DNA from: a virus
IMG/VR virus record: IMGVR_UViG_3300004242_000129
Span: 1-47,952 of that record
Reading direction: 5' to 3' (one strand)
Length of the DNA: 47,952 bases
Part shown: positions 6,688 through 39,929 of the stretch, piece after piece
How positions within the stretch are numbered: the stretch's first letter is position 1
How the letters are laid out: every line of letters begins with the position of its first letter
Translations under genes and position numbers: made by a program
The notes under the pieces: generated by a model
What the model was told of the DNA's origin: nothing
The model's input: the letters and a program-made list of their open reading frames with translations, nothing else
Databases searched by the model: none

Positions 6688-6760
6688 GCCCCCGTAGCTC
6701 AGAGGATAGAGCAGCGGTTTCCTAAACCGTTGGTCGCAAGTTCGACTCTTGCCGGGGGCG
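6688..6760 (+). tRNA. tRNA-Arg(CCT)
   Basis: Complete cloverleaf. Acceptor GCCCCCG pairs with CGGGGGC (6753-6759) and the discriminator is G6760. D-arm is GCTC...GAGC. Anticodon stem GCGGT/ACCGT has loop TTCCTAA, anticodon CCT (reads AGG). T-arm is GCAAG-TTCGACT-CTTGC. CCA is not encoded. It carries its own upstream promoter and abuts the phage integrase, the usual arrangement for tRNA-targeting tyrosine integrases. Confidence 0.95.
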
Positions 6761-6773
6761 CAGCGTTTCCCGT
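6736..6773. other. Probable left prophage attachment junction (attL)
   Basis: The T-arm and 3' end of tRNA-Arg lie directly beside the stop codon of the integrase gene. By analogy with tRNA-integrating phages, the crossover core should lie within the tRNA 3' half. The matching attR is outside the window, so core length and exact edge are unknown. Confidence 0.55.
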
Positions 6774-7985
6774 CTACCCAGTGGGCTTACCGTGGGCTTG
6801 ACGCGCCGGACGCACCTCAGCCGAGGGCAACGCCATCGCGGCCCGCGTCTCCTCCGCAGCTCTGACCACGGCGGACCGTGCCAGGTGAGCGTACCGCTGC
6901 GTGGTCGTGATCGAGCGGTGCCCCATGAACTCGCGCACCTCCTCGAGTGACCAGGCACGCCCCCAGGAGCCGGAGACGAGCATCGAGGCGCAGGTGTGCC
7001 GGAGCGAATGCCACGTCACCGGAGTCCCGGTCTGCCCACGCACGATGGACACGCCTCTAGCCCACCACAGCGGAGGAGGACCTGGGCACCTTGTCGCGCG
7101 TCGTGACCCTCGGAGCGGAGGGAAGGCAACTCCGGTATCCGCGATCTTGCGGGCGACGGTGGGGTGCGAACTCCACCGCTCCCAGGCCTCGTCGGCTCCG
7201 GGCAGGAGAGGGACGTACCGGATGCGGCGCGTCTTCGTCGGCCCGTCGGACGTGCCACGGCGCACCACAACGTGAGGGTGTGGGGAGTCGGCATGCACGT
7301 CCACGCTCCGCAGCGCCCATTGTTCCCCCTCTCTCATCCCCGTCCATACCGCCCACTGCACGAGCCACCGATACGGCTCCGCGATGCCTTCCAGGAGCGT
7401 CATCTGCTCGCCAAGGTCCAGCCACGTCCACGGCTCCACGATAGAGCGCTTGAGGTCTTCCTGGCGCTTGGGAACCGTCACTCCGGCGGCCGGGTTCACC
7501 GCGATGAGCCTGTCGTTGACGGCAGAGGCCAGGCACGAGCGCATGAGGTTCAGCGCGTTGCGAATCGTCTGTGGGGACAGTAGGCCGTTGTCCCCGGTCC
7601 GGTGGCGGTTGCCTCGTCGCCTTCCAGATCTGGCTACTCGTTCGACCCACGAGCGCACGTCGTACGGCTCGATCGCTCGCACGGGCAGATCTGCGATGGG
7701 ATGCGGCGCGATGTGCACGTTCCAACGACTGCGCTCGTCGACGAGGCCTTGCTCGTCTCTTCGGTCGAGCCAAAGCGCACCGTACTCGGACAGCGTTGCT
7801 CCCACCGCAGGGCGGACGCGTGCCTTTGCGAGGTCGTCGGCTGCGGCTGCCAGGATGGCGCTTGCTTCCTCGATGGTGTCGACGATGCCGAGGCTACGCC
7901 TGACGCCTAGGTCGTCGGTTATCCGGATCCGGTACCTGCCCCGGTGCGCCTCGATCGTGCCTGTCCCGCGTGGTCGTCGTTGCAT
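6774..7985 (-). CDS. int: Tyrosine-type phage integrase
   Basis: 403 aa. N-terminal arm-binding-like region (GTIEAHRGRYRIRITDDLG), then a core-binding SAM-like domain at about residues 60-170. The catalytic domain carries the first Arg in WTGMREGEQW, HSLRHT (His-x-x-Arg), MGH and the nucleophile Tyr in QRYAHL. All R-H-R-H-Y residues are present, so it should be active in site-specific integration at tRNA-Arg. The start at 7985 has CAGGAGTG upstream. It is the last gene of the leftward operon; its 5' end overlaps the preceding small ORF by 67 bp, which suggests translational control. Confidence 0.95.
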   Translation of the reverse strand: MQRRPRGTGTIEAHRGRYRIRITDDLGVRRSLGIVDTIEEASAILAAAADDLAKARVRPAVGATLSEYGALWLDRRDEQGLVDERSRWNVHIAPHPIADLPVRAIEPYDVRSWVERVARSGRRRGNRHRTGDNGLLSPQTIRNALNLMRSCLASAVNDRLIAVNPAAGVTVPKRQEDLKRSIVEPWTWLDLGEQMTLLEGIAEPYRWLVQWAVWTGMREGEQWALRSVDVHADSPHPHVVVRRGTSDGPTKTRRIRYVPLLPGADEAWERWSSHPTVARKIADTGVAFPPLRGSRRATRCPGPPPLWWARGVSIVRGQTGTPVTWHSLRHTCASMLVSGSWGRAWSLEEVREFMGHRSITTTQRYAHLARSAVVRAAEETRAAMALPSAEVRPARQAHGKPTG

Positions 7986-8173
7986 CGGATGTGCACTCCT
8001 GATCGTGCCAGCCTACGCCTGGCTTCGTCCCTCGCGCCAGGGTCAATCGAGGCCGGGTCGGGCGGCGGCACGGGCCCACGCCTTCTCGGCTTTCGAACTC
8101 GACCCGCACGCAGCTCCACGAGCAGTTGCTCGAGCAGCTGGGCGATGAGGTCGAGTCGCTCCGAGTCGGTCAC
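7919..8173 (-). CDS. Small basic protein, possible excisionase-like or integrase leader
   Basis: 84 aa starting at a GTG that overlaps the methyltransferase stop as GTGA, with GGAGATG upstream. The N-terminus is helical (SERLDLIAQLLEQLLVEL), followed by a basic stretch (RVRKPRRRG), a proline turn and a C-terminal tail that overlaps the integrase start. Position between a phage gene and int fits a recombination directionality factor, but no winged-helix excisionase motif is clear. Function unassigned. Confidence 0.5.
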   Translation of the reverse strand: MTDSERLDLIAQLLEQLLVELRAGRVRKPRRRGPVPPPDPASIDPGARDEARRRLARSGVHIRCNDDHAGQARSRRTGAGTGSG

Positions 8174-9582
8174 GCCGTCATCTCCCTTCGGCGCTCCATC
8201 ACGTTCGCGGCAACGATCGCCTCGGCCACCTGCGGGCAGACCGAGTTGCCGGCGAGCGCGATCTGAGCCGTCTTCGTCAGTGGCTTACCGTTGGACTCCG
8301 GGGCAATGACGTAGTCGCTCGGGAAGCCCTGCGCGGCGAACAGCTCGTGGGGCTGGAGCATGCGCATGCCGATGTCCACGATCTGGTATGCCTGCCCGGA
8401 GACCATCACCAGGCCGACGTGCCCGCCTCCACGGCCACCGCCAGCCGTGATGGTCGGAAGCGGCTGCTGGCAATCCGAGCCCGTGCTGGTCCCGTAGAAC
8501 TTCGTGAGGAAGGCAGCGGTCAACGCGTGGTGGTCCTTCGACGTGACCGTGCCGAGCGTCCGGTCGACGCGATGCCCGACCATCCCGCCGTAGTGCTTCG
8601 TGATGACGGGAGCGACTAGGTGCTTGTCGTTCGTGGCGCAGACCGTACCGAGCGGGATGCGGAGTTGCTGTCCTCGGAACGTGCCGGCTCCGCACCCTTC
8701 ACGCAGACCCGCACCGGTGATGGTCGAGTAGTGTCCGTGGCGAACGAGGAACGGGGTTACGAGGCCGAACCGATCTCGCGTGGTGGCGGTCGGCAATGGT
8801 GCGCCAATCTCCCGCCCGACTGACTGGCCGTAGTAGCTGACGATGAACGGCTCCGCCGCGTCGATCACGTAGCGCTGAATTCCAGCCGCAATCCGCTTGA
8901 GCGTCGCCTCAGCAAGCGGGCGCTGGCGATCAAAAATGCTGGGGCACGGGAGGCTCCAGTCGATGATGCCGGACGCCGCGCGCCACGGATTCTGCCTGCC
9001 GGTGCCGTGGGTCGGCGAGGGCCACAGGCACGGCTCCCCGTCCCGACGCGCTACCAGGAAGAGCCGCTTGCGGGTCGTGGGAGTGCCGTAGTCCGCTGCC
9101 ACGAGCGAACGAAACTCTACCTCGTAGCCAAGGCTCGTAAGCTTGCCGAGCCACGCACGGAAGGTCTTCCCTACGCCTCTCGGATCCGGCCTTCCGTCGA
9201 CAACCGGGCCCCACGTCTGGAACTCCTCGACGTTCTCGAGGACGATGACGCGGGGGCGCACGGTAGACGCCCATCGAATGACGACCCAGGCGAGGCCACG
9301 GATCGACTTCTTGACAGGCTGGGTGCCCTTTGCCCGGCTGAAGTGGGTGCAATCTGGGCTGAACCATGCGAGCCCCACGGGCCGACTCCCGCACGCCTCC
9401 CGCGGGTCGACCTCCCAGATGTTCTCGCAGAAGTGCTTCGTCCCCGGGTGGTTTGCCCGGTGCATGGCGATCGCCTCGGGGCTGTGGTTGATCGCGATGT
9501 CCACGGGGCGCCCGATCGCGGCCTCGATGCCAGTCGAAGCCCCTCCGCCTCCGGCGAAGTTGTCGACGACGAGTTCGATCAC
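8170..9582 (-). CDS. DNA (cytosine-5) methyltransferase
   Basis: 470 aa. Motif I is FAGGGGAS (about residues 9-16). The catalytic Cys is C78 in SPDCTHFS, the phage-type variant of the PC motif. Then come ENVEEF (116-121), TPTTRKRLFLVAR (motif VIII), a long target-recognition region, and C-terminal MLQPHELFAAQGFP and GNSVCPQVAEAIV (motifs IX-X). It transfers methyl from SAM to C5 of cytosine, probably protecting phage DNA from host restriction; no cognate endonuclease is adjacent. The GTG at 9582 overlaps the upstream stop as GTGA with GTGGAGGC before it. The frame stays open further upstream, but that stretch is the SbcC-like gene in another frame. Confidence 0.92.
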   Translation of the reverse strand: MIELVVDNFAGGGGASTGIEAAIGRPVDIAINHSPEAIAMHRANHPGTKHFCENIWEVDPREACGSRPVGLAWFSPDCTHFSRAKGTQPVKKSIRGLAWVVIRWASTVRPRVIVLENVEEFQTWGPVVDGRPDPRGVGKTFRAWLGKLTSLGYEVEFRSLVAADYGTPTTRKRLFLVARRDGEPCLWPSPTHGTGRQNPWRAASGIIDWSLPCPSIFDRQRPLAEATLKRIAAGIQRYVIDAAEPFIVSYYGQSVGREIGAPLPTATTRDRFGLVTPFLVRHGHYSTITGAGLREGCGAGTFRGQQLRIPLGTVCATNDKHLVAPVITKHYGGMVGHRVDRTLGTVTSKDHHALTAAFLTKFYGTSTGSDCQQPLPTITAGGGRGGGHVGLVMVSGQAYQIVDIGMRMLQPHELFAAQGFPSDYVIAPESNGKPLTKTAQIALAGNSVCPQVAEAIVAANVMERRREMTA

Positions 9583-12014
9583 GCCTCCACCCTCACCTTC
9601 CCATCCGAGATGACGATCCGCGCGTCGGCAAGCTCCTGGACGTCGATCGAATGCGACACGAAGAGCACCTGGCTCGCTCCGACGATGTCTGCTGCCCTGC
9701 GGAGCATCGCCACGTACGCCCGCCCGTTTGCTGGGTCGAGCGCCGCGCCCGTCTCGTCTCTGATCAACGAGCCGCCCTCCACTCCCGCCCGCCTGCACGC
9801 CAGCATCGAGAGCGCGAGGGCCACAGCCTCGCCGACCAGCACGCGCTCCCCACCGGACAGCGACTCGGCAGAGGCCTCTCTTCCCCGCTCCGTGTCGATT
9901 ACCCGGACGTCGCAATCCTCGAGCACCTTCTTCCCGTCGGCGCTGTTGCGCTGAGTTTCGATCGAAACGGTCCAGCGTGGCCCGACGCAACTGCGCAGCA
10001 AATCGTTGACGAGCTCCGTCAGTTCTGGCCCCACGGCGTCGATCTCGTAGGCCTGCAGCCCGTTTCGCCCGAGGTCCGCGGCAAGCTTCGTCCAGTCGGC
10101 GAGCTCGCACTCGAGGGCATTGCGGTCCTGCTCGAGCTGGGCCGTGCGCTCGGCCGACTCCCTCGCCTGTCGGAGGGCGTGTTCGCGAACTGGGGGCGCC
10201 GCGTGCGCGTCTCGCGCCGCCCGCTCTGCCTGGCGGAGGGCCAACCGGGCGCCCTCGATGTCCGGCGCCCGCGGAACCTCGGGCGGGGGACCGAGCGCGG
10301 CGACGACGCGCCCAGTCTCGACCACCTCGGCAGTCGCTGCGTCAAGCTGCGGCGTCAGTTCCTCGATCCGGGCCTGCGCGGTGTCGAGGTGGGATGCCCG
10401 GAGGGCTACGCGCTCGACGTCCCGGAGGCGTGCGTCTCCCTCCTGGATCGCAGCGTGGAGTCGACCACGCTCCTTCTCCGCCTCGCCTGCCCGCTTGCTC
10501 GCGTCTTCGTGCCGGGCAATGGCGTAGTCGCGATCGGTCTCTGCCTGTTCCAGGTCGCGTCGTGCCGCGGAGAGGTCCTGGTGTGCAAGGTCCAGGTCGG
10601 GAGCACGGGAGGCGAGCCTCTCGCAGGCTTCCAGTGCCCTGCGTTCGCGTTCGAGCGCCATGAAGGCGTCGGCCTGCGCGCGAGACGCGGCGTTGATCTG
10701 GTCGGGAAGCTCCTTCGCCTGCGCCACCACGTCGTCATCGTCGAGGAGAGCGTGGGCCGCGATCTGCCTTGCGTGCCCCCAGTCCTCAGCTTGAGGAATC
10801 CTTTCTAGCCCTCCACGCAGACCTCCGATCCGCTCCTCCGCCCCCGCCACCCGCTGGCCCATCAGCGCTTCGTGCGCTTCCTTCGCCTCCAGGTGCTTCG
10901 CAGCGGCGACTCCCACGGCGTCCCTGAGCCTCTCCAGGTCTGCAACGGCGGCCTCGATGGCCTTCCGGTCGGCGAGACGGCGGACAGCGGCGGCTTCGCG
11001 CTGGCGTGCGGCGTCTGCCTGGCGCTTCGCGTTCGCTGTGCGATCGCGCCATTGCTTCGCCGTGCGTCGGTGTTCTTCTGCGTCGCGAATTACCGCGTCA
11101 CGGGCGGCGGAAAGCTCGTCCACCTCCTTGCGGAGCCTCTCGAACTCCACCACTGCCCGGCGAATGGCTTCCGCGTCGTCGAGGACGCGACGGTTGTTGT
11201 CGATTCGCCGGTTCAGATCGGCGATGCGCTCGGTCAGCGCGACGTGCTTCACGTCCAGCCTGGCTCGCTCCGCGGAGTAGAGCGCAGCGGCTTGGAGCGA
11301 GTCTTCCCTCTTGCGAGCCTCTTCCTCGGCCTTCGCCAAGGCCTCCTTGGCGATCTCCAACTCGGCGTCGGCCTCTTCAGCGTTGCCCTTCGCCACGCGT
11401 AGCTCGAACTCCGCCTCCTCCACGTCGAGCCCCCTGGCCCTCCCGTCCTCCAGCCGCGCCTGCACCACGGCGAGCGCCTGGCGCGCATCCCTCTCGCGCT
11501 CCCGGGCCTTCTCGGCCAGGCCCTCGAGGTGCTCGATTCCAAGCGCTCTCAGCAGCACAGCTTTCCTGTCCCCGGGCTTCATGTCGAGGAATCCACCGCT
11601 GCCCTGCGCTGAGAACACGGAGCTGAAGAACACCTCGGGGGATGGGAGGTGCTGCGCGGCCCACCGGTCGAACTCCGCCACCTTGCCGGAAGGCAACATC
11701 GGAGCTCCGGAGGCGTCGAGCACGAGGGACTCGCCCTTGCGGGATGCGGCGTCGACCGTGTGGCGAATCGTGTACGCTGCCCCGTTGACTGCTCTGACCT
11801 CAAGGTAGGAGTCCCGGCCCGTCGCCAGGTCGGACAGTCTCCCGCGGGTCGGCGTGGTGCGGTAGAGGCCGGCGGCGAGCAGCTCGAGGAGCGTGCTCTT
11901 CCCAGCACCATTCGCACCCGCGATGGCAACGATTCGTCCCGGGACGCCCGACAGGTCCAGCAATACGTCTCCGAATGGGCCGAGGTTTCGGACTGCGATG
12001 GATTCGAATCTCAT
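9579..12014 (-). CDS. SbcC/Rad50-like ATPase
   Basis: 811 aa SMC-type protein. Walker A GANGAGKST lies at residues 33-41, a very long charged coiled-coil region follows (about 170-650), and the C-terminal lobe has signature LSGGERVLVGEA, a Walker B-like LIRDETGAALD and H-loop VLFVSHS. The region between the coils has no CxxC, so the Rad50 zinc hook is not evident. It should partner the SbcD-like nuclease encoded two genes upstream in DNA end processing, as T4 gp46/gp47 do. The start at 12014 has a perfect AGGAGG and overlaps the preceding gene as ATGA. Confidence 0.88.
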   Translation of the reverse strand: MRFESIAVRNLGPFGDVLLDLSGVPGRIVAIAGANGAGKSTLLELLAAGLYRTTPTRGRLSDLATGRDSYLEVRAVNGAAYTIRHTVDAASRKGESLVLDASGAPMLPSGKVAEFDRWAAQHLPSPEVFFSSVFSAQGSGGFLDMKPGDRKAVLLRALGIEHLEGLAEKARERERDARQALAVVQARLEDGRARGLDVEEAEFELRVAKGNAEEADAELEIAKEALAKAEEEARKREDSLQAAALYSAERARLDVKHVALTERIADLNRRIDNNRRVLDDAEAIRRAVVEFERLRKEVDELSAARDAVIRDAEEHRRTAKQWRDRTANAKRQADAARQREAAAVRRLADRKAIEAAVADLERLRDAVGVAAAKHLEAKEAHEALMGQRVAGAEERIGGLRGGLERIPQAEDWGHARQIAAHALLDDDDVVAQAKELPDQINAASRAQADAFMALERERRALEACERLASRAPDLDLAHQDLSAARRDLEQAETDRDYAIARHEDASKRAGEAEKERGRLHAAIQEGDARLRDVERVALRASHLDTAQARIEELTPQLDAATAEVVETGRVVAALGPPPEVPRAPDIEGARLALRQAERAARDAHAAPPVREHALRQARESAERTAQLEQDRNALECELADWTKLAADLGRNGLQAYEIDAVGPELTELVNDLLRSCVGPRWTVSIETQRNSADGKKVLEDCDVRVIDTERGREASAESLSGGERVLVGEAVALALSMLACRRAGVEGGSLIRDETGAALDPANGRAYVAMLRRAADIVGASQVLFVSHSIDVQELADARIVISDGKVRVEA

Positions 12015-12457
12015 TGCTGCCTCCTGCTCCACTCTCGGCATTCTCGGCACATGTGGTGACCGTCGCCGTTGCAGTCCCCGCCAGGCAGACCCGAAACGAA
12101 GCGGTCGCAGCCTTCGCGAGCCCCCCTCGGTGTGTCCGGCCCCGCGAGCATGTCCCTGATCTCCCGCAGCGCGGCAGGTCCGTCGTGGATGCCCTGCTCA
12201 CACTCGTAGGCGTACTGCTCGCACGCGTGGGCGATCTCGTTGCGTTCGCGCTCCAGTTCGGCCACCTTCGCGCGCCACGCGTCCGCCACTGTCTTGTCGT
12301 AGCCCTCTCGGATCCTGACGTGCATGTCGGCCTCGCGCTCCTCCGCCACGACATGAGCGCATTCGTTGCAGTACCTCGTCGGCTCCTGATCTGGCTCCGT
12401 CATGAGATACTCTTCACCGCATCGAGCACAGACGGGCGGGTCTTCAATCGTGCTCAC
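12011..12457 (-). CDS. Zinc-ribbon protein within the SbcCD-like operon
   Basis: 148 aa. N-terminal CARCGEEY and CNECAHVV form one likely zinc ribbon. A helical centre follows (AWRAKVAELERERNEIAHAC), and the C-terminus has a second Cys/His cluster (CNGDGHHMCRECREW). It overlaps the SbcD-like stop by GTGA and the SbcC-like start by ATGA, so it is translated with both. Conserved placement between the two subunits would suggest an accessory DNA-binding factor; no family recognised. Confidence 0.65.
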   Translation of the reverse strand: MSTIEDPPVCARCGEEYLMTEPDQEPTRYCNECAHVVAEEREADMHVRIREGYDKTVADAWRAKVAELERERNEIAHACEQYAYECEQGIHDGPAALREIRDMLAGPDTPRGAREGCDRFVSGLPGGDCNGDGHHMCRECREWSRRQQ

Positions 12458-13596
12458 GCCGCCACCTCCTCTTCGATCTGGCTGGCCTTCCCGAGCAGGG
12501 ACGGCTCGCGCTCCCCGAGGTCCTCTCCCTTGGCCTTCCAGTACGCCCGGAGCTTGTCGGTCAGGGTCTTGGCTTCCGCCACCTCTGGCGCCCTGGCACG
12601 CACCGAGGTCTCGACGACTTCTTCGAGTTTCACCACCGCCCCCCTCGCCAGGGCTGTTGCGCGGTATTCCTCCGCTCGCGCCCGGGCCGCTTCCCGATGC
12701 TCTCCGGGGACCACGTAGCGAAGTCGGACCTCAGCACCCGCGACGTCCGTGAGGCGGTGAAGACCGAAGAGGATTCCGTGCTCCGCATCCCAGACGGCTT
12801 CGAGCAGGAGCATCGGGGTGGCGGGAGTCTCGATGAACCTCCAATCGAAGTCGCGGAATGGGTCGCCGTCGGAGAACTCGGCCACGAGGTACCCCTTCCG
12901 CTCGAGTTCTCCGAACGCGGTGCGCCTCGGGGAGCCTGGATAGACGAGGGATGCGCCGTCGGAACTCTCAAACCGCTGGTGCTGGTGGATGTGTCCGAGG
13001 GCGACAAGGTCCGCCCCCGCTAGCGCCAGGTCATCCACTCCAACGGACATGTCACATCCAACGAGGGGCTGGCCTGAGCTGGTGGTACTGCCGTCCACCA
13101 TGGCGTGTGTGAGCAGCACCCGGGGACCGTCGTGCTGCTCGAGCTGCTGTCGAAAGCTGAGGAGTACGGCCCGGAGGGCTTCCGAGGCAGCCGTTGAGCT
13201 GTCGGCACCAGCGTCGACCCTCGCCATGAGTTCGGCCTTCCGCGGCCATGCGAGGCAAGCCACCGCGGCCCCAGCGACGTAGTGCACTCCCGCTGCCTCC
13301 TCGACCGTGATCGGGTGACGCGCCTTGAGCCTGCCCATCAGTGGCAAGTCGCCCAGGGCGTCGTGATTACCCCTCACGATGACGACGGGGGCCGCCGCTG
13401 CGACTCGCTGCAGCCAATCGGCCACCGCCTTCCGTTCTGTGGGGGTGGACTTGGCGTCGAACAGGTCCCCGGAGTGCAGGACGAGGTCCACATCGCGTCG
13501 TTGCATGTCCTGCGCGATCCACTCGTGGATGCGCACGCATTCGTCGAATCGGCTTCGCTCGGAGAAGTGGCTATCGGCGATGATTGCGATTCTCAT
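12454..13596 (-). CDS. SbcD/Mre11-like metallophosphoesterase nuclease
   Basis: 380 aa. Calcineurin-type metal-binding motifs in order: IIADSHF (D8, H10), HSGDLFD, VRGNHDAL, LLTHAM and LGHIHQHQ. The C-terminal third is a capping domain of the SbcD type. With the SbcC-like ATPase it should form an ATP-dependent exo/endonuclease acting on DNA ends. The ATG at 13596 has GAGGTG upstream; a GTG two codons earlier is possible. The stop overlaps the zinc-ribbon gene as GTGA. Confidence 0.9.
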   Translation of the reverse strand: MRIAIIADSHFSERSRFDECVRIHEWIAQDMQRRDVDLVLHSGDLFDAKSTPTERKAVADWLQRVAAAAPVVIVRGNHDALGDLPLMGRLKARHPITVEEAAGVHYVAGAAVACLAWPRKAELMARVDAGADSSTAASEALRAVLLSFRQQLEQHDGPRVLLTHAMVDGSTTSSGQPLVGCDMSVGVDDLALAGADLVALGHIHQHQRFESSDGASLVYPGSPRRTAFGELERKGYLVAEFSDGDPFRDFDWRFIETPATPMLLLEAVWDAEHGILFGLHRLTDVAGAEVRLRYVVPGEHREAARARAEEYRATALARGAVVKLEEVVETSVRARAPEVAEAKTLTDKLRAYWKAKGEDLGEREPSLLGKASQIEEEVAA

Positions 13597-13608
13597 GTTC
13601 ACCTCGGT

Positions 13609-13677
13609 GGGGCGCCCGGGAGTCGAACCCGGCTAGGCCTGCTGGTCCCGCTTCGGAATTCCCAGCTCCATCGCCCC
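13609..13677 (-). other. tRNA-like element with T-arm but no anticodon arm
   Basis: Read on the minus strand, CCGGG-TTCGACT-CCCGG forms a canonical T-arm, followed by GCGCCCC and A. GGGGCG at the 5' side (to 13677) pairs with all but the last base of that acceptor strand. The total is only 69 nt, and no stem-loop with U33 and an anticodon can be drawn between. It sits in the 128-bp gap between the annealing-protein and SbcD genes. It may be a decayed tRNA, a tRNA mimic or an mRNA-processing element. Confidence 0.35.
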
Positions 13678-13724
13678 AGGGCCCTCGGTCTTGGGAGAGG
13701 GCCGTGCTGTCTGTTGTCCTGGGC

Positions 13725-14528
13725 TCACCTCCTCTCTCGGCACCGACCGGGGACGGGCGCAATGGGCGCGAGCTGCGGAGCCTGCGCCGCCTGTCCGGAA
13801 GGCAGGGCGACCGGAGGGCCGTAGAGGGCGGACCTGGCGCCGAGCGCGTTCTTGAAGATCATCATCTCGAACACCGCTTGGGTCCTCGGGTCGTCGGTCT
13901 CCCCTGTGAGCTGGATCTTGAAGACGATCCACGGACGGGCGATGTCCTTCTGGTTCATGGCGCGAAGGCCGATTGCCTTGCGGAAGGCTCGCGCCCTGGC
14001 CTTGGACTCTGCGATGCTGAGGATGTGCTGCCGCTGCTGACGCAGTTGCTTGGTCTTCAGTTCCCCCTTCTCGTCTCGGAACCCCTCAGCCTGGGCGGAC
14101 CCGTCACGCAAGTCCGTCTTGTTGGTCCCGCTCAAGGGAATCGGCATTCCGTCCGGGCCCATGTAGCTCCCCACCGCAAGGTAGCTGCACAGGTACGGGT
14201 GGGAGCCATCATCTAGCCGCCCGGAACGGGTGGAGTCCCACGTCACCCCGAACGCCGCAGCCAGGCGGTCCAGCGTGGTCGCAGTGAGGGTGTAGCCTCC
14301 CTGGACGTTGTAGACGTCGCCTCCATCCCGGACCGCCCGCTTGTCGACGTCCACCTCTCCCCAGACGACCGAGAAGCCGTTGGGCAGGCGGACGCCAGCG
14401 AGCCCCGGAGGGGCCACCACGTTGCAGTCTTGGCGGAGCCCCTCGAGCACCCTCGCTACCTGCTGCGGGTCCCGGCTTTTGCCGCTCTTCGGGAACGTGT
14501 CTCGCTGCTGAATTGCACTCTGTGCCAT
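13725..14528 (-). CDS. Putative single-strand annealing (Rad52/Erf/RecT-like) recombination protein
   Basis: 267 aa starting at an ATG preceded by GAGGAGGAAG. A mixed alpha/beta core (VRLPNGFSVVWGEVDVDKR, YTLTATTLDRLAAAFGV) is followed by the helix HILSIAESKARARAFRKAIG. This resembles the AET-R-A-I/K-RALR helix common in phage annealing proteins. The C-terminus is Pro/Ala/Gln-rich. The family call is an inference from this helix and from operon context with SbcCD-like genes, as annealing proteins usually work with a resecting nuclease. No catalytic motif is expected. Confidence 0.6.
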   Translation of the reverse strand: MAQSAIQQRDTFPKSGKSRDPQQVARVLEGLRQDCNVVAPPGLAGVRLPNGFSVVWGEVDVDKRAVRDGGDVYNVQGGYTLTATTLDRLAAAFGVTWDSTRSGRLDDGSHPYLCSYLAVGSYMGPDGMPIPLSGTNKTDLRDGSAQAEGFRDEKGELKTKQLRQQRQHILSIAESKARARAFRKAIGLRAMNQKDIARPWIVFKIQLTGETDDPRTQAVFEMMIFKNALGARSALYGPPVALPSGQAAQAPQLAPIAPVPGRCRERR

Positions 14529-14542
14529 CGTCTTCCTCCTCC

Positions 14543-14746
14543 TCAGTTCGTCGCTGCCCGGTGCAGCTCGTCCTTCGCCCGCTCGAGCCATTCGAGCTCG
14601 TCCTTCGCCCGCTCGAGCCATTCGAGCTGGCGCGTGTCTCCTGTTCTCACGGCCCGGCACGCGGCCCGCCGCCTCGCCCGCTCCCACGCGAGCCAGACCG
14701 AACGGGCGGGCGGCAGATGCCTGTTGATCAGTCCTACGATTCGCAT
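14543..14746 (-). CDS. Small protein with duplicated 10-residue helical repeat
   Basis: 67 aa; ATG at 14746 with GGAGGGCC upstream. The N-terminus is basic (WERARRRAACRAVRTGDT). The C-terminus carries two identical copies of ELEWLERAKD followed by ELHRAATN, created by a 30-bp tandem DNA duplication. Its start overlaps the end of the next upstream gene by 13 nt. Unknown function. Confidence 0.6.
   Translation of the reverse strand: MRIVGLINRHLPPARSVWLAWERARRRAACRAVRTGDTRQLEWLERAKDELEWLERAKDELHRAATN
14565..14628. repeat. 30-bp tandem duplication inside a coding region
   Basis: Period-30 perfect repeat over 64 nt (2.1 copies), beginning AGCTCGTCCTTCGCCCGCTC. It keeps the reading frame and duplicates ten residues of the encoded helix. 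Confidence 0.9.
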
Positions 14747-18577: not shown

Positions 18578-18648
18578 GCCGCTGCAGCACGATGGTCGTG
18601 CCCCCGGTTTGTACCCGGGAGGTCCCGGTTCGACTCCGGGCGGCGGCT
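18578..18648 (+). tRNA. Phage tRNA-Thr(TGT)
   Basis: 71-nt cloverleaf. Acceptor GCCGCTG/CGGCGGC is fully paired with one G-T. D-arm GCAC-GATGGTC-GTGC. Anticodon arm CCCGG-TTTGTAC-CCGGG has U33 and anticodon TGT. T-arm CCCGG-TTCGACT-CCGGG. Discriminator T18648; CCA not encoded. Position 8 is C and the D-loop lacks A14, so it is slightly divergent. It would read ACA, a codon expected to be rare in such GC-rich DNA. Confidence 0.7.
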
Positions 18649-18677
18649 CCGTGGGCTGACGGCCTACAAAAACCAAA

Positions 18678-35761: not shown

Positions 35762-36646
35762 ATGACAACGAAGATCACGGATCTGGTCGATGTGGAGGAG
35801 CTCACCGAAGCTGTCTCCGCTCGTTTCGCGGCTGGCGTCAACGCCCTGTGGGGCACCGGCGCTGCCATTCTCAACTCGTCCTTCCCCGGCGGGCCTGACG
35901 CCGTCGGCACGAAGGTCAAGGTCCCCTACTTCGGCTCGATCGGAGAGTGGGAGTCGCTCGCCGACGGTTCCGCTTTCACGCCGACCAAGATCACGCAGAC
36001 CGAGGAGGAAGCCACGGTCCACCGGATCGGCAAGGCGTTCTCCATCACGGACTGGGCTCGCATGGCCGGGGCCAAGGGCGAGGGCGGAAAGGACCCGTAC
36101 GAGGAGGCCGCCGAGCAGGCCGTCGCGGGATTCGAAGGCGCGATCGATCGCATGCTCATCCTATCCTTCGTGGCGAGCCTGCCCGCGATGACGGTGGACG
36201 TCTACAGCGCCACCACGCCCCGGACGATCGACAGCGACCTGGTCATCGACGGCCGCGCCAAGTGGGGAGACGAAGCGGGTGCCCGCTCCTTGCTTATGGC
36301 CCACAGCAAGGTCGAGAACGACATGTGGAAGCTCAAGGACGCCACGGGGCGCAACCTGCTCGTCAGTCCACAGACCGGCGGGCTGAGCACGTTCGTGGGC
36401 TACCCGGTCGGCATGAGCGACCGTCTCGCCGCCGCCGCGGGCATCACCCCGGCGAAGTACACCACGGTCCTGGCAAACCCGGGAGCCGGGGTGTGCTGGT
36501 ACAACGGCACGCCCGAGGTCGAGACTGGCCGCGACATTCTTGCTGGCGCCGATGTCATCGTGGTCTCGACCTACGCGGTCGTGCACCGTTACAAGCGCCT
36601 GCCCGGCAAGACGAAGCCCGGCGTCGCTCTGCTCACCCACAACTGA
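35762..36646 (+). CDS. Major capsid protein
   Basis: 294 aa, HK97-fold type by composition and position. Features include TDLVDVEELTEAVSARFAAG, VKVPYFGSIGEWESLADGSA, a helix with AEQAVAGFEGAIDRMLILSF, WGDEAGARSLLMAHSKVEND and the C-terminal YAVVHRYKRLPGKTKPGVAL. Directly follows the protease/scaffold gene with AAGGAG upstream, as capsid genes do. No N-terminal delta domain, so the separate scaffold makes sense. Confidence 0.85.
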   Translation: MTTKITDLVDVEELTEAVSARFAAGVNALWGTGAAILNSSFPGGPDAVGTKVKVPYFGSIGEWESLADGSAFTPTKITQTEEEATVHRIGKAFSITDWARMAGAKGEGGKDPYEEAAEQAVAGFEGAIDRMLILSFVASLPAMTVDVYSATTPRTIDSDLVIDGRAKWGDEAGARSLLMAHSKVENDMWKLKDATGRNLLVSPQTGGLSTFVGYPVGMSDRLAAAAGITPAKYTTVLANPGAGVCWYNGTPEVETGRDILAGADVIVVSTYAVVHRYKRLPGKTKPGVALLTHN

Positions 36647-36947: not shown

Positions 36948-37310
36948 ATGGGATCGTACAAGAACGAACGGACCCGCCGCCTGGAGCACTTCGACGAGAT
37001 CGTGCTGGACAGCGGCAAGGAAGTCGACGGGGCAAGCGGCGACGGCACCACCGTGGAGGTGGGCGCCAAGGGCACGCTTCTTCTCGACCTGACCGTGGCC
37101 GCCCTCGGGGCAGGCACCACCCTCACCGTGACGGTCTACACGTCCAAGGACGCCACCACGTGGCGCAGCCTCGGCGCGTTTGCCGCCGCCAACGCCACCG
37201 GAGCCGAGCGCAAGTCCTTCCCCGGCTGCGACCGGTACGCGCGCGCCAACTGGGCGCTCGCCGGGGGCACCACCACCGCCACGTACTCCGTGAGCGGGGA
37301 AGCCGTCTGA
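36948..37310 (+). CDS. Beta-sandwich virion protein (120 aa)
   Basis: Predicted all-beta: TTLTVTVYTSKDATTWRSLG, FPGCDRYARANWALAGGTTT then ATYSVSGEAV. The same pattern (LTVTV-TS-D--TWR, G-DRY-RA-WTLAG) reappears in the N-terminal half of the protein encoded at 39219, so the two share a duplicated domain. Possible decoration or adhesion-type domain. Confidence 0.6.
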   Translation: MGSYKNERTRRLEHFDEIVLDSGKEVDGASGDGTTVEVGAKGTLLLDLTVAALGAGTTLTVTVYTSKDATTWRSLGAFAAANATGAERKSFPGCDRYARANWALAGGTTTATYSVSGEAV

Positions 37311-37354: not shown

Positions 37355-38101
37355 ATGTTCTCTCCCTACGGGTTTCCGCAGAACGGCGCCCGGCTGCTGC
37401 TCACCGTCATCGCGGCCAGCACCGGGAACGTCGCCGACCTCGCCTCCTGCTCCACCACCATGGACGGGGTCACCCTCGTCGAAGGCAACCTCGTCCTGCT
37501 CAAGAACCAGACGGCGACCGAGGACAACGGCGTCTACAAGGTCGGCAAGGTCGAAGGCGCCCATGCACCTATGACGCGGCACGATCTGTCCGACCTCGCC
37601 ATCGCCAACGGCGGCGGCGTGCACCTGTTCGTCGCGACGGGCACGGCCAACGCTGGACTCGAGTACGCGCTGACGACCTCCGGCAGCATCACCGTCGGCA
37701 CGACCTCGCTGACCTTCACGCAGCGACCGACGCAGTCCGCGGTCGCCTCTCTCGAGACCCGCCTGTCGGCTGACGAGAGCGTGGGTGAGCTCAGTTCGGC
37801 TTCCTCCTACGAGTCGCTGACCACGCGGCTGAGCACCGAGGAGAGCACGCGCACCAGCGCAGACTCTTCCCTCACGGCGAAGGACTCGGTCAACCTGTCC
37901 ACCGCGCTGAGCACGATCGCATCGGGTGACGCATCCCTCACCGCCAAGGATTCCGTGAATCTGTCGACGGCGCTGAGCACCACGGCGTCCTCTGCGGCTT
38001 CCATCACCGCGGTCGCATCCGTCGTCCTGTCGACGGAAGTGGCGGACGTCGCCTCCATTGATGCGGCCATCTCCTCGCTCATCGCCTCGATCGACGCCTG
38101 A
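37355..38101 (+). CDS. Fibre-like protein with 22-residue Ser/Thr-rich repeats
   Basis: 248 aa. Residues 1-125 carry the phage-fibre element DGVTLVEGNLVLLKNQTATE-DNGVYKV that recurs in tail-fibre proteins. Residues about 172-237 form three 22-residue repeats (SLTAKDSVNLSTALST... twice nearly identical, the third diverged), preceded by two SL-TRLS--ES units. Extended trimeric stalk likely. Very rich in Ser and Thr, with no Cys in the repeats. The stop overlaps the DUF2827 gene (TGATG), so both are co-translated. Confidence 0.7.
   Translation: MFSPYGFPQNGARLLLTVIAASTGNVADLASCSTTMDGVTLVEGNLVLLKNQTATEDNGVYKVGKVEGAHAPMTRHDLSDLAIANGGGVHLFVATGTANAGLEYALTTSGSITVGTTSLTFTQRPTQSAVASLETRLSADESVGELSSASSYESLTTRLSTEESTRTSADSSLTAKDSVNLSTALSTIASGDASLTAKDSVNLSTALSTTASSAASITAVASVVLSTEVADVASIDAAISSLIASIDA
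37868..38065 (+). repeat. 66-bp tandem coding repeats
   Basis: Three 66-bp units; the first two differ mainly at synonymous or third positions and encode near-identical residues. The third is more diverged. Unit loss or gain would keep frame and change stalk length. Confidence 0.75.
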
Positions 38102-39222
38102 TGAGAGACCGCCCAAACGTAGCGGTGACCTTCTTCCTCCACGGGGACAAGCGTCACAGCATCTGGGACAACGGAGCGGCGCAGAACTGCGTCTTCCTGG
38201 TCCGGTTGCTGCGAGCCTCTGGCCTCGTGGGGAAGGTCTTCGCCGTCAACGGAGGGCACGAGGCCGAGCCCCATCCAGCGCTCATGCTTGACGGGCTCGA
38301 ACTCGAGTTCGTGCGCATGGGGGAGGTCCTCGACCAGGTAGACGTGCTCATCGAAGCCGGGGCCCAGGTCTCGGCGGATAGCATCGCATCGGTCCGGTCG
38401 CGCGGCGGCCGCGTGGTCGCCTACAAGTTCGGGAACGCATACGTCATCGACATGGAGCGTGTCCTGTTCTCCCGTGACGCAGGCGCGATCTTCAATGGCG
38501 CCGTTTACGACCAGGTGTGGACGACCGCGCAGCACATGCGCACGAACGCAGCCTGGTGGCAGACGATGTACCGGGCCCCCGTTCTGCATCTCCCTCACAT
38601 CTGGGAGCCCCTCTTCGTCGACAAGGCCATCACGGAGCTTCCAGACGGTGCGTGGGGATACAAGCCTGGGGCGAAGGCAAAGCGCATCGGGGTGTTCGAA
38701 CCGAACATCAACGTCGTGAAAAGCTCGTTCATCCCGGCGTGCGTGATCGAGCAGGCGTACCGCCTTCGGCCAGACCTGGTGGAGCACGTCTACCTCACCA
38801 ACACCTTCCACCTCAAAGAGCACCTCACGTTCAACTCGTGGGCCTCCGCGCTCGACCTGTGGAAGGCGAGGAAGTGCAGCTTCGAGGGCCGCTTCAACAC
38901 GCCCTACTTCCTGAGCACGCACACGGACGTCGTGGTCAGCCACCAGTGGGAATGCGGGCTGAACTACGCCTACTACGACGCCCTGCACGGCCACTACCCG
39001 CTCGTGCACAACTCGGAGCTTCTGCCCGACGGCATAGGCTACCGCTACGACGGCTTCGACGCGGTCGCGGGGGGGCGCCTACTCGCGTCCGTCCTGCAAG
39101 TGCACGACTCGCAGCACGAGGCGTACAGCAAGCGGTGTGACGACTTCCTCGCGACCGTGCTGGCGACGTCCCCGCAGAACATCCAGGCGCACGAGAGCGC
39201 GATCAAGGGCCTGTGGCAATGA
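38101..39222 (+). CDS. DUF2827 glycosyltransferase-like protein
   Basis: 373 aa. Matches the DUF2827 pattern throughout: HSIWDNGAAQNCVFLVRLLR, DQVDVLIEAGAQV, RSRGGRVVAYKFGNAYV, VLHLPHIWEPLF, RIGVFEPNINVVKSSFIPAC, VYLTNTFHLKEHLTFNSWAS, DVVVSHQWECGLNYAYYDAL and YPLVHNSELL. DUF2827 proteins are found in polysaccharide and glycosylation loci and look like GT-B enzymes; activity has not been read from motifs here. Unusual in a virion gene block. Coupled to the Ser/Thr-rich fibre-like gene, so I infer glycan modification of a virion protein. Confidence 0.8.
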   Translation: MRDRPNVAVTFFLHGDKRHSIWDNGAAQNCVFLVRLLRASGLVGKVFAVNGGHEAEPHPALMLDGLELEFVRMGEVLDQVDVLIEAGAQVSADSIASVRSRGGRVVAYKFGNAYVIDMERVLFSRDAGAIFNGAVYDQVWTTAQHMRTNAAWWQTMYRAPVLHLPHIWEPLFVDKAITELPDGAWGYKPGAKAKRIGVFEPNINVVKSSFIPACVIEQAYRLRPDLVEHVYLTNTFHLKEHLTFNSWASALDLWKARKCSFEGRFNTPYFLSTHTDVVVSHQWECGLNYAYYDALHGHYPLVHNSELLPDGIGYRYDGFDAVAGGRLLASVLQVHDSQHEAYSKRCDDFLATVLATSPQNIQAHESAIKGLWQ

Positions 39223-39929
39223 ACAAGCTGTCCATCACCCTCCAGCCGGTCACGACGGTGTCCTCGGCGGGAAGTGGCGAGGTGGTCGACATTGCTGCGA
39301 CCCGATCTGCCGCGAAGCTGCGCGTGGTCGTGGCGGCGCTCGAGGGAACCGATCCATCGCTCACCGTGACCGTGGAGACGTCGCCCGACGAGCTGACCTG
39401 GCGACCAGTGGACTCGGTCACGATGGAGGCGGCTGGGTCGGCGGAGCTCGTCGTGGTCGGGCTGGACAGGTACGTCCGAGCGTCGTGGACGCTGGCGGGG
39501 ACCTACGCCACCATCGCGGTGGCGGGAGCGGCTCGGCAACTCTTCGCCACGGCAAAGGACCTGGAAGCTCTGAGCCTTGGGCCTTCGATCCTCGATGGCG
39601 TGGACGCCCAGAAGCTGAACCGGGCGCTCGTGCACGGCAGCGATCTGGCCGCGGGCTACCTCGGGGGTCAGTACGACCTTCCGCTCGTGAGCTGGAGTGA
39701 CGACCTGTCCGGGCACACCGCGGCGGTCGCGGCCTACCGGTTCATGGCGTCGATCGGCTACGCTCCGGAGGGAAGCGACGAGCACATCCGCACGATGTAC
39801 GAGGACGCCATCCGATGGTTCGAGCGCGTCTCGGAGGGGAAGATCTCGCCGGACGGCATCGTGGACAGCACGCCAGAGGAGAGCTCTGGCGGCGCGTTCG
39901 TCTACACCAAGTCTCTTCGGGGGTGGTGA
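39219..39929 (+). CDS. Mu gp36-like (DUF1320) protein with N-terminal beta-sandwich
   Basis: 236 aa from the ATG at 39219 (ATGA overlap; an ATG-A-M start two codons earlier via GTG is possible). Residues 1-110 repeat the beta-sandwich of the 36948 product (LTVTVETSPDELTWRPVDSV, LDRYVRASWTLAGTYATIAV). Residues 110-236 follow the DUF1320/gp36 pattern (TAKDLEALSLGPSILDGVDA, LGGQYDLPL, AAVAAYRFMASIGY). Head-tail connector role inferred from family and order. Confidence 0.7.
   Translation: MNKLSITLQPVTTVSSAGSGEVVDIAATRSAAKLRVVVAALEGTDPSLTVTVETSPDELTWRPVDSVTMEAAGSAELVVVGLDRYVRASWTLAGTYATIAVAGAARQLFATAKDLEALSLGPSILDGVDAQKLNRALVHGSDLAAGYLGGQYDLPLVSWSDDLSGHTAAVAAYRFMASIGYAPEGSDEHIRTMYEDAIRWFERVSEGKISPDGIVDSTPEESSGGAFVYTKSLRGW

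Follow-up and report, generated by a model that had tools for sequence, protein, structure and literature searches.

DUF2827 proteins as most likely cytoplasmic glycosyltransferases for Ser/Thr-rich coiled-coil stalks of a probable phage head fibre and of bacterial adhesins

A fibre gene and a DUF2827 gene in the late region of an integrated prophage

The window analysed here, meaning the whole stretch of 47,952 nucleotides, corresponds to positions 1 to 47,952 of IMGVR_UViG_3300004242_000129 (IMG/VR). It is an integrated prophage with a left host arm, a tRNA-Arg(CCT) gene and an integrase (Table 1), and therefore not a free virus contig. Chromosomal-type genes in the 1-6.6 kb region encode a short-chain dehydrogenase (SDR), a CoA-transferase III and an AbgT transporter. 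Following the integrase, the modules run from replication with a DnaB helicase through terminase, a Mu-type portal, an F-like protein, protease/scaffold and the major head protein (MCP) to the fibre and enzyme genes P0001 and P0002, and then on to gp36- and gp37-like proteins, sheath, tube and tape measure. An earlier note on this DNA, made from the sequence alone, had referred to a Mu-like phage. This description suits the head/tail genes, with Mu-type matches for the portal, F-like, gp36-like and sheath proteins, but not the mode of integration, which is by a tyrosine integrase beside tRNA-Arg, and we observe no transposase among the window proteins scanned (a subset of the ORFs). The prophage combines Mu-like head genes with integrase-based insertion at tRNA-Arg and is not a transposing Mu phage.

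Table 1. Features of the window relevant to the fibre-enzyme pair and to prophage integration.
Feature	Position	Strand	Evidence
tRNA-Arg (CCT), probable prophage attachment site	6688..6761	+	ARAGORN; integrase gene begins 12 bases away
Tyrosine integrase	6774..7985	-	Pfam Phage_integrase E 4e-15
Major head protein (MCP)	35762..36646	+	phrog_247 E 1.6e-22
P0003, small decoration-like protein	36948..37310	+	phrog_9522, as for the N-terminal part of the gp36-like protein
P0001 residues 1-128, N-terminal virion domain (fibre attachment domain)	37355..37738	+	phrog_2647 head decoration E 3e-14 and eight other PHROGs; kept alone in L226
P0001 residues 130-248, Ser/Thr-rich helical stalk, proposed glycosylation substrate	37742..38098	+	Repeat statistics; AF2 helix; module common to the L012 fibre
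Two successive 22-residue repeats, residues 171-192 and 193-214, 18/22 identical	37865..37996	+	
TGATG stop-start overlap of the fibre and enzyme genes	38099..38103	+	Also in L003, L009, L010, L011, L012
P0002, DUF2827 protein, predicted GT-B glycosyltransferase, 373 aa	38101..39222	+	PF10933 E 9.8e-125; AF2; Foldseek
Mu gp36-like head-tail adaptor	39219..39929	+	PF07030 E 7e-15; phrog_195

The fibre gene P0001 spans 37355-38101 (248 aa), in agreement with the ORF coordinates given earlier, and the pair sits within the structural gene block as had been stated, flanked by the MCP and the gp36-like adaptor. The reported overlap of the fibre stop with the DUF2827 start codon can be read directly in the sequence, where the TGA of P0001 (38099-38101) runs into the P0002 ATG at 38101. 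On the other side, the P0002 stop overlaps the start of the gp36-like gene by ATGA. With these overlaps on either side, the enzyme gene is therefore embedded in the late operon. A glycosyltransferase-type gene of the phage is here linked to a virion protein gene, the gene arrangement expected of phage virion self-glycosylation.

Two further features lie in the early part of the prophage. A tRNA-Thr(TGT) gene is found at 18578-18650 in the phage early region, and the minus strand beside the integrase (8170-13602) encodes a C-5 cytosine methylase, an 823-aa SMC/RecN-like ATPase and a calcineurin-like phosphoesterase. The latter two resemble an SbcCD-like pair, and together with the methylase they are possible defence or recombination cargo.

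The C-terminal half of the fibre is a Ser/Thr-rich helical stalk

The N-terminal ~128 residues of P0001 form a domain that is common to many phage virion proteins, as seen from its PHROG matches. The C-terminal 119 residues have a different composition, with 38% Ser+Thr (45/119) compared with 21% in the N-terminal part and 9-21% in other proteins of the structural block. Self-identity at a lag of 22 residues is 0.49, while the maximum in shuffled sequences averages 0.21 (0/500 shuffles reach 0.49). The 22-residue repeats crowded with Ser and Thr that were described from the sequence are thus real, but they do not form a strict 22-mer array, as the spacing mixes 18 and 22 residues in the manner of a hendecad/heptad coiled coil. 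In the AlphaFold2 model, residues 149-247 form a single long helix (pLDDT about 75-93). The N-terminal domain, with its shallow alignment, is modelled at pLDDT <50, and its proposed attachment to the head therefore draws on the PHROG matches and gene position, by which P0001 is most likely a fibre of the head and not of the tail. Around the pair, phrog_9522 is matched both by P0003 (36948-37310) and by the N-terminal part of the gp36-like protein (39219-39550), placing a duplicated decoration-like domain on either side.

P0002 is predicted to have a GT-B fold

The assignment of the 38101-39222 product to DUF2827 is confirmed, with a match of 416.6 bits to profile positions 2-361 of 362 in Pfam PF10933 (gathering cut-off, 25 bits). 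No other family in Pfam or NCBIfam matches P0002, and sequence and profile searches of solved structures return no match to a glycosyltransferase. The AlphaFold2 model (mean pLDDT 94.8, pTM 0.92, 51 relatives in the alignment) gives the glycosyltransferase-like fold that had been supposed. The best solved structures in Foldseek are GT-B enzymes of the GT4 type, led by BshA (3mbo, E 1.8e-10, TM 0.62), and BshA, HepE, WaaG and others match over both domains and the whole length (E 1e-10 to 1e-7, TM 0.5-0.63). O-GlcNAc transferases, including GtfA (4pqg, TM 0.46), appear as more distant matches, and a weaker one is the sugar-nucleotide epimerase fold (UDP-GlcNAc 2-epimerase 1v4v).

Family positions that are at least 90% conserved and present in P0002 are G25, Q28, N29, E200, N202, K207, R264, H281, N288, H303 and N304. 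The GT4 EX7E motif is not plainly recognised, while the region 281-304 (HQWE...N288...H303 N304) is conserved; we therefore infer the catalytic activity of P0002, as a GT-B/GT4-like glycosyltransferase, from its predicted fold and from conservation. P0002 has no obvious membrane segment, which fits cytoplasmic action. In the literature searched, we found no biochemical or mass-spectrometric data on DUF2827 proteins, one passing mention aside.

Stalk and enzyme travel together among phages

Searching with DUF2827, we obtain 13 viral loci, and no relatives of P0002 are found among 50,697 annotated phage records. Throughout the Mu-like-head group of these loci (window/L007, L003, L008, L009/L010, L011/L012 and L013), a Ser/Thr-rich repeat protein is encoded upstream of DUF2827; the two genes are adjacent except in L013, where ~400 bases lie between them. 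A search with the fibre only returns seven contigs, all within this set, and in 7/7 the DUF2827 gene comes straight after the fibre, so that the proposed co-occurrence of repeat fibre and enzyme in related phages holds for every contig from the fibre search. The phage evidence comprises about six lineages of assembled metagenome contigs.

The pair occupies three different genome positions, all in head modules: between the MCP/decoration genes and gp36 in the window, between the Mu portal and the head protease/MCP in L012, and behind a Mu-F-like protein in L013. The fibre N-termini are unrelated across the three positions, and in the L012 fibre, an N-terminus unrelated to that of P0001 precedes a stalk module that is 47% identical over ~150 residues (E 4e-30). 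Between the window and L008, DUF2827 is 63% identical versus 39% for the MCP and 30% for the sheath, the pattern that exchange of a cassette would produce. In L009, the MCP and the gp35-like protein are 98% and 97% identical to those of the window, but identity falls to 63% for DUF2827, 72.5% for P0003 and 49% for the tape measure. Both comparisons suggest that the cassette is exchanged or diversifies rapidly.

A further comparison is with a sister phage (L226) that has the gene order of the window and an MCP that is 76% identical. Its homologue of P0001 keeps the N-terminal domain (63%) and ends in a non-repeat domain with no Ser/Thr stalk, and DUF2827 is absent both from the locus, where gp36 starts about 13 bases later, and from the rest of its 17.6 kb record; since this record is a fragment, the absence of DUF2827 along with the stalk is certain for that locus only. 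DUF2827 is likewise not found in the records of seven further viral relatives of this homologue, all of which lack the Ser/Thr-rich helical stalk. It is therefore the stalk, and not the attachment domain, with which the enzyme is associated, and these stalk-less relatives led us to reject the reading that DUF2827 belongs with the fibre N-terminal domain. When counterexamples were sought, stalk-like repeats without DUF2827 were found in L112, L113 and L115, all fragments of <15 kb. In the record of an 81 kb phage (L114, G033), very long fibres with SLxTRLSxEE repeats occur together with a distant DUF2827 that lies far from the fibre, and the pairing therefore need not be adjacent in larger phages.

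Among the remaining viral loci, DUF2827 is found behind a protein of SIDSLE repeats (L015), behind an S74-type tail fibre with repeats (L017), as two copies behind tail-type proteins (L016/L018), and among other glycosyltransferases (L014). The DUF2827 tree requires at least four changes between viruses and bacteria. The enzymes of the Mu-like-head phages form one group (96/73) beside those of Haemophilus, Acinetobacter and other Gammaproteobacteria, and several of these gammaproteobacterial neighbours are single-copy.

Bacterial DUF2827 genes lie mainly beside Ser/Thr-rich adhesins

In bacteria, one to four DUF2827 genes are found next to very large proteins that are rich in Ser/Thr. Across 20 bacterial genomes that were chosen only for having DUF2827, a YadA anchor domain lies within 2 kb of 19/27 DUF2827 clusters, whereas 0.18 would be expected (P about 2e-38), and the earlier description of DUF2827 as a family of polysaccharide loci thus gives way to one of mainly adhesin loci. 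The median number of residues in Ser/Thr-rich windows is 1112 in the 22 adhesins near DUF2827 versus 0 in the 67 others (p 6e-9). Two of the 22 near-adhesin fragments (L190 and L192) were probably read out of frame, an error that would weaken this difference. DUF2827 adjoins the adhesin richest in Ser/Thr in 12 of 15 genomes, against 4.2 expected. No Ser/Thr-rich trimeric adhesin adjoins the Collimonas and Paludibacterium DUF2827 genes. The location of DUF2827 beside Ser/Thr-rich trimeric autotransporter adhesins in bacteria provides independent support for the reading that the phage enzyme glycosylates its fibre.

The stalk sequences differ by genus, with SLSTSTST in Burkholderiales, ASSSANA or SAANSAT in Haemophilus and SATASAS in Acinetobacter; (SAANSAT)n-type stalks recur beside DUF2827 in Haemophilus species. 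The common feature is therefore Ser/Thr on a coiled coil rather than any single sequon. A universal LST sequon was considered and rejected: LST occurs in Burkholderiales and in P0001, but the Haemophilus, Acinetobacter and L013 partners are without it, the stalk motif of the last being SLTV.

In Haemophilus aegyptius (L027), the gene order is adhesin, DUF2827, GT4-type gene, DUF2827. Within this locus (11147-14727), the DUF2827 genes alternate with the GT4-type glycosyltransferase and a 408-aa protein without a family. In previous work, H. aegyptius F3031 was found to encode TabA1, whose stalk has 90 repeats of the AASSSAS type, followed by an additional gene, HIBPF06250; this gene, called conserved hypothetical, has homologues in the tandem pair downstream of the adhesin Cha. 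In contrast, TahA1 of strain F3047, with AETAKAG repeats, is without a gene of this type (Strouts et al., PMC3309571). Because L027 has DUF2827 in the matching place, HIBPF06250 is probably a DUF2827 gene. For a Burkholderia cenocepacia adhesin, Ser/Thr repeats were suggested to be O-glycosylated by an enzyme that was not named (PMC7142374).

Two other Haemophilus loci show variation in the family. In G028 (L221/L216), a third tandem DUF2827 copy contains two stop codons and is apparently a pseudogene. In G024 (L218), DUF2827 is preceded by a 3849-codon open frame for an adhesin that is 40% Ser+Thr, and a second DUF2827 remnant is present in the genome.

A proposed mechanism and its alternatives

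From these observations, DUF2827 is most likely a cytoplasmic glycosyltransferase for Ser/Thr-rich coiled-coil stalks, which belong to a probable head fibre in the phage and to adhesins in bacteria. For the window, we consider it probable that P0001 is a virion fibre and P0002 a soluble GT-B enzyme glycosylating its stalk. P0001 would join its N-terminal phage domain to a Ser/Thr-rich helical coiled-coil stalk of about 100 residues and would most likely decorate the capsid. Through translational coupling, P0002 would be synthesised immediately after the fibre; acting in the cytoplasm during late expression, it would transfer a sugar from a host nucleotide-sugar to Ser/Thr residues in the stalk repeats, either while the virion assembles or earlier. 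For the virion, such a glycan might bear on protease resistance, stalk stiffness, adsorption or masking. We see no sugar-synthesis genes near P0002, which is a single enzyme in the phage, and the phage would therefore draw on nucleotide-sugars of the host. Action in the cytoplasm on a just-translated stalk would suit both adhesins prior to export and phage fibres prior to assembly. Stalk and enzyme would be exchanged between phages as one cassette, the enzyme being a phage branch of a family that bacteria appear to use on the stalks of trimeric autotransporter adhesins.

As the bacterial relatives pair with host adhesins and the window is an integrated prophage, one could alternatively suppose lysogenic conversion, in which the phage DUF2827 mainly modifies a host adhesin or glycoprotein, with effects on adhesion or a block of superinfection, and the fibre is a mere neighbour. 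We regard this as unlikely, however, since stop-start overlaps with both neighbours fix the gene within the late head operon, and since it comes and goes with the stalk, not with other genes. Less probable again is that P0002 serves as a stalk-specific chaperone or pseudo-enzyme, keeping Ser/Thr-rich helices soluble or aiding trimerisation with no sugar transfer. HMW1C-type glycosyltransferases have been suggested to double as chaperones (reviewed in PMC8151025) and the GT4 catalytic motif is not obvious in P0002, but DUF2827 has many strongly conserved polar residues, a GT4-type gene is a partner in Haemophilus, and the factor common to the partners is Ser/Thr content, adhesins without it in the same genomes not being neighbours.

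That P0002 modifies phage DNA or makes a nucleotide-sugar, independently of the fibre, seems to us very improbable. The GT-B fold of P0002 is also common to phage DNA glycosyltransferases (H6WG44) as well as to UDP-GlcNAc 2-epimerases such as 1v4v, and the window contains DNA methylases; such roles are nevertheless difficult to reconcile with the location of the gene, its close linkage to stalk genes across different phages and the bacterial adhesin partners, which are unconnected to DNA. We give equally little credence to a chance neighbourhood of two ordinary late genes. The independent phage lineages are few, but the pairing is found at three genome positions in several lineages with Mu-like heads, the adhesin association in bacteria is far beyond chance, and both L226 and the fibre-only search contradict this explanation.

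Comparison with known glycosylation systems

When compared to known systems, stalk glycosylation by P0002 would have its nearest phage parallel in the mycobacteriophages, for which phage-encoded virion glycosylation is reported (Freeman et al. 2023, cited in PMC12619734). As in the account cited there, a phage glycosyltransferase would decorate a virion protein of its own phage. According to the same source, the mycobacteriophage glycans are on the C-termini of capsid and tail tube subunits, whereas the substrate proposed here is a Ser/Thr-rich coiled-coil stalk, and unlike in that case as cited, the enzyme is a DUF2827 protein, with stalk and enzyme moving together.

Among bacteria, two enzyme classes, NGT and BAHT, are known to glycosylate type 5 adhesins in the cytoplasm (PMC8151025). 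As proposed for DUF2827, the BAHT enzymes (Aah, TibC; PMC8151025) are dedicated cytoplasmic enzymes, often encoded beside a type 5 adhesin, and form O-linkages on Ser/Thr. However, P0002 has no BAHT family match, no BAHT structure is among its 50 best Foldseek matches, and the BAHT substrate is a β-helix passenger, whereas the partner of DUF2827 is a coiled-coil stalk, in adhesins with YadA anchors. The HMW1C-like NGTs (PMC8151025) are similarly dedicated and cytoplasmic, partly operon-linked to their adhesin, and have some trimeric autotransporters as substrates, but they act on Asn in NX(S/T), whereas the DUF2827 partners are Ser/Thr-rich repeats; P0002 has no match to the HMW1C-like NGT (GT41) family in Pfam or NCBIfam. 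The GtfA/GtfB system also combines a Ser-rich repeat adhesin with a dedicated O-glycosyltransferase, but it is a Gram-positive system, and GtfA, a larger protein, is only distantly similar in structure. A further likeness is to the Haemophilus Cha/TabA1 loci, in which one or more conserved hypothetical genes downstream accompany a Ser-rich heptad stalk; the difference is that no function for these genes was proposed there (PMC3309571).

We thus propose, as a reasonably likely though less secure extension, that DUF2827 represents a third class of cytoplasmic adhesin glycosyltransferase besides NGT and BAHT, directed to Ser/Thr-rich coiled-coil stalks and carried in a surface-glycosylation cassette that is portable between phages and bacteria. 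Its bacterial relatives beside giant adhesins suggest a role for a family previously without an assigned function, and the DUF2827 genes that are common beside such adhesins in Burkholderiales and Haemophilus would now have a testable one. In phages, this would be a new kind of virion decoration whose substrate and enzyme are encoded together in a small, transferable and easily reconstituted cassette, and possibly a compact tool for glycosylating coiled-coil repeats.

By far the closest viral fold match to P0002 in BFVD is A0A7L9AXF5, an uncharacterised protein of Pyramimonas orientalis virus (TM 0.82, 16% identity), and DUF2827-like enzymes may thus also occur in giant algal viruses.
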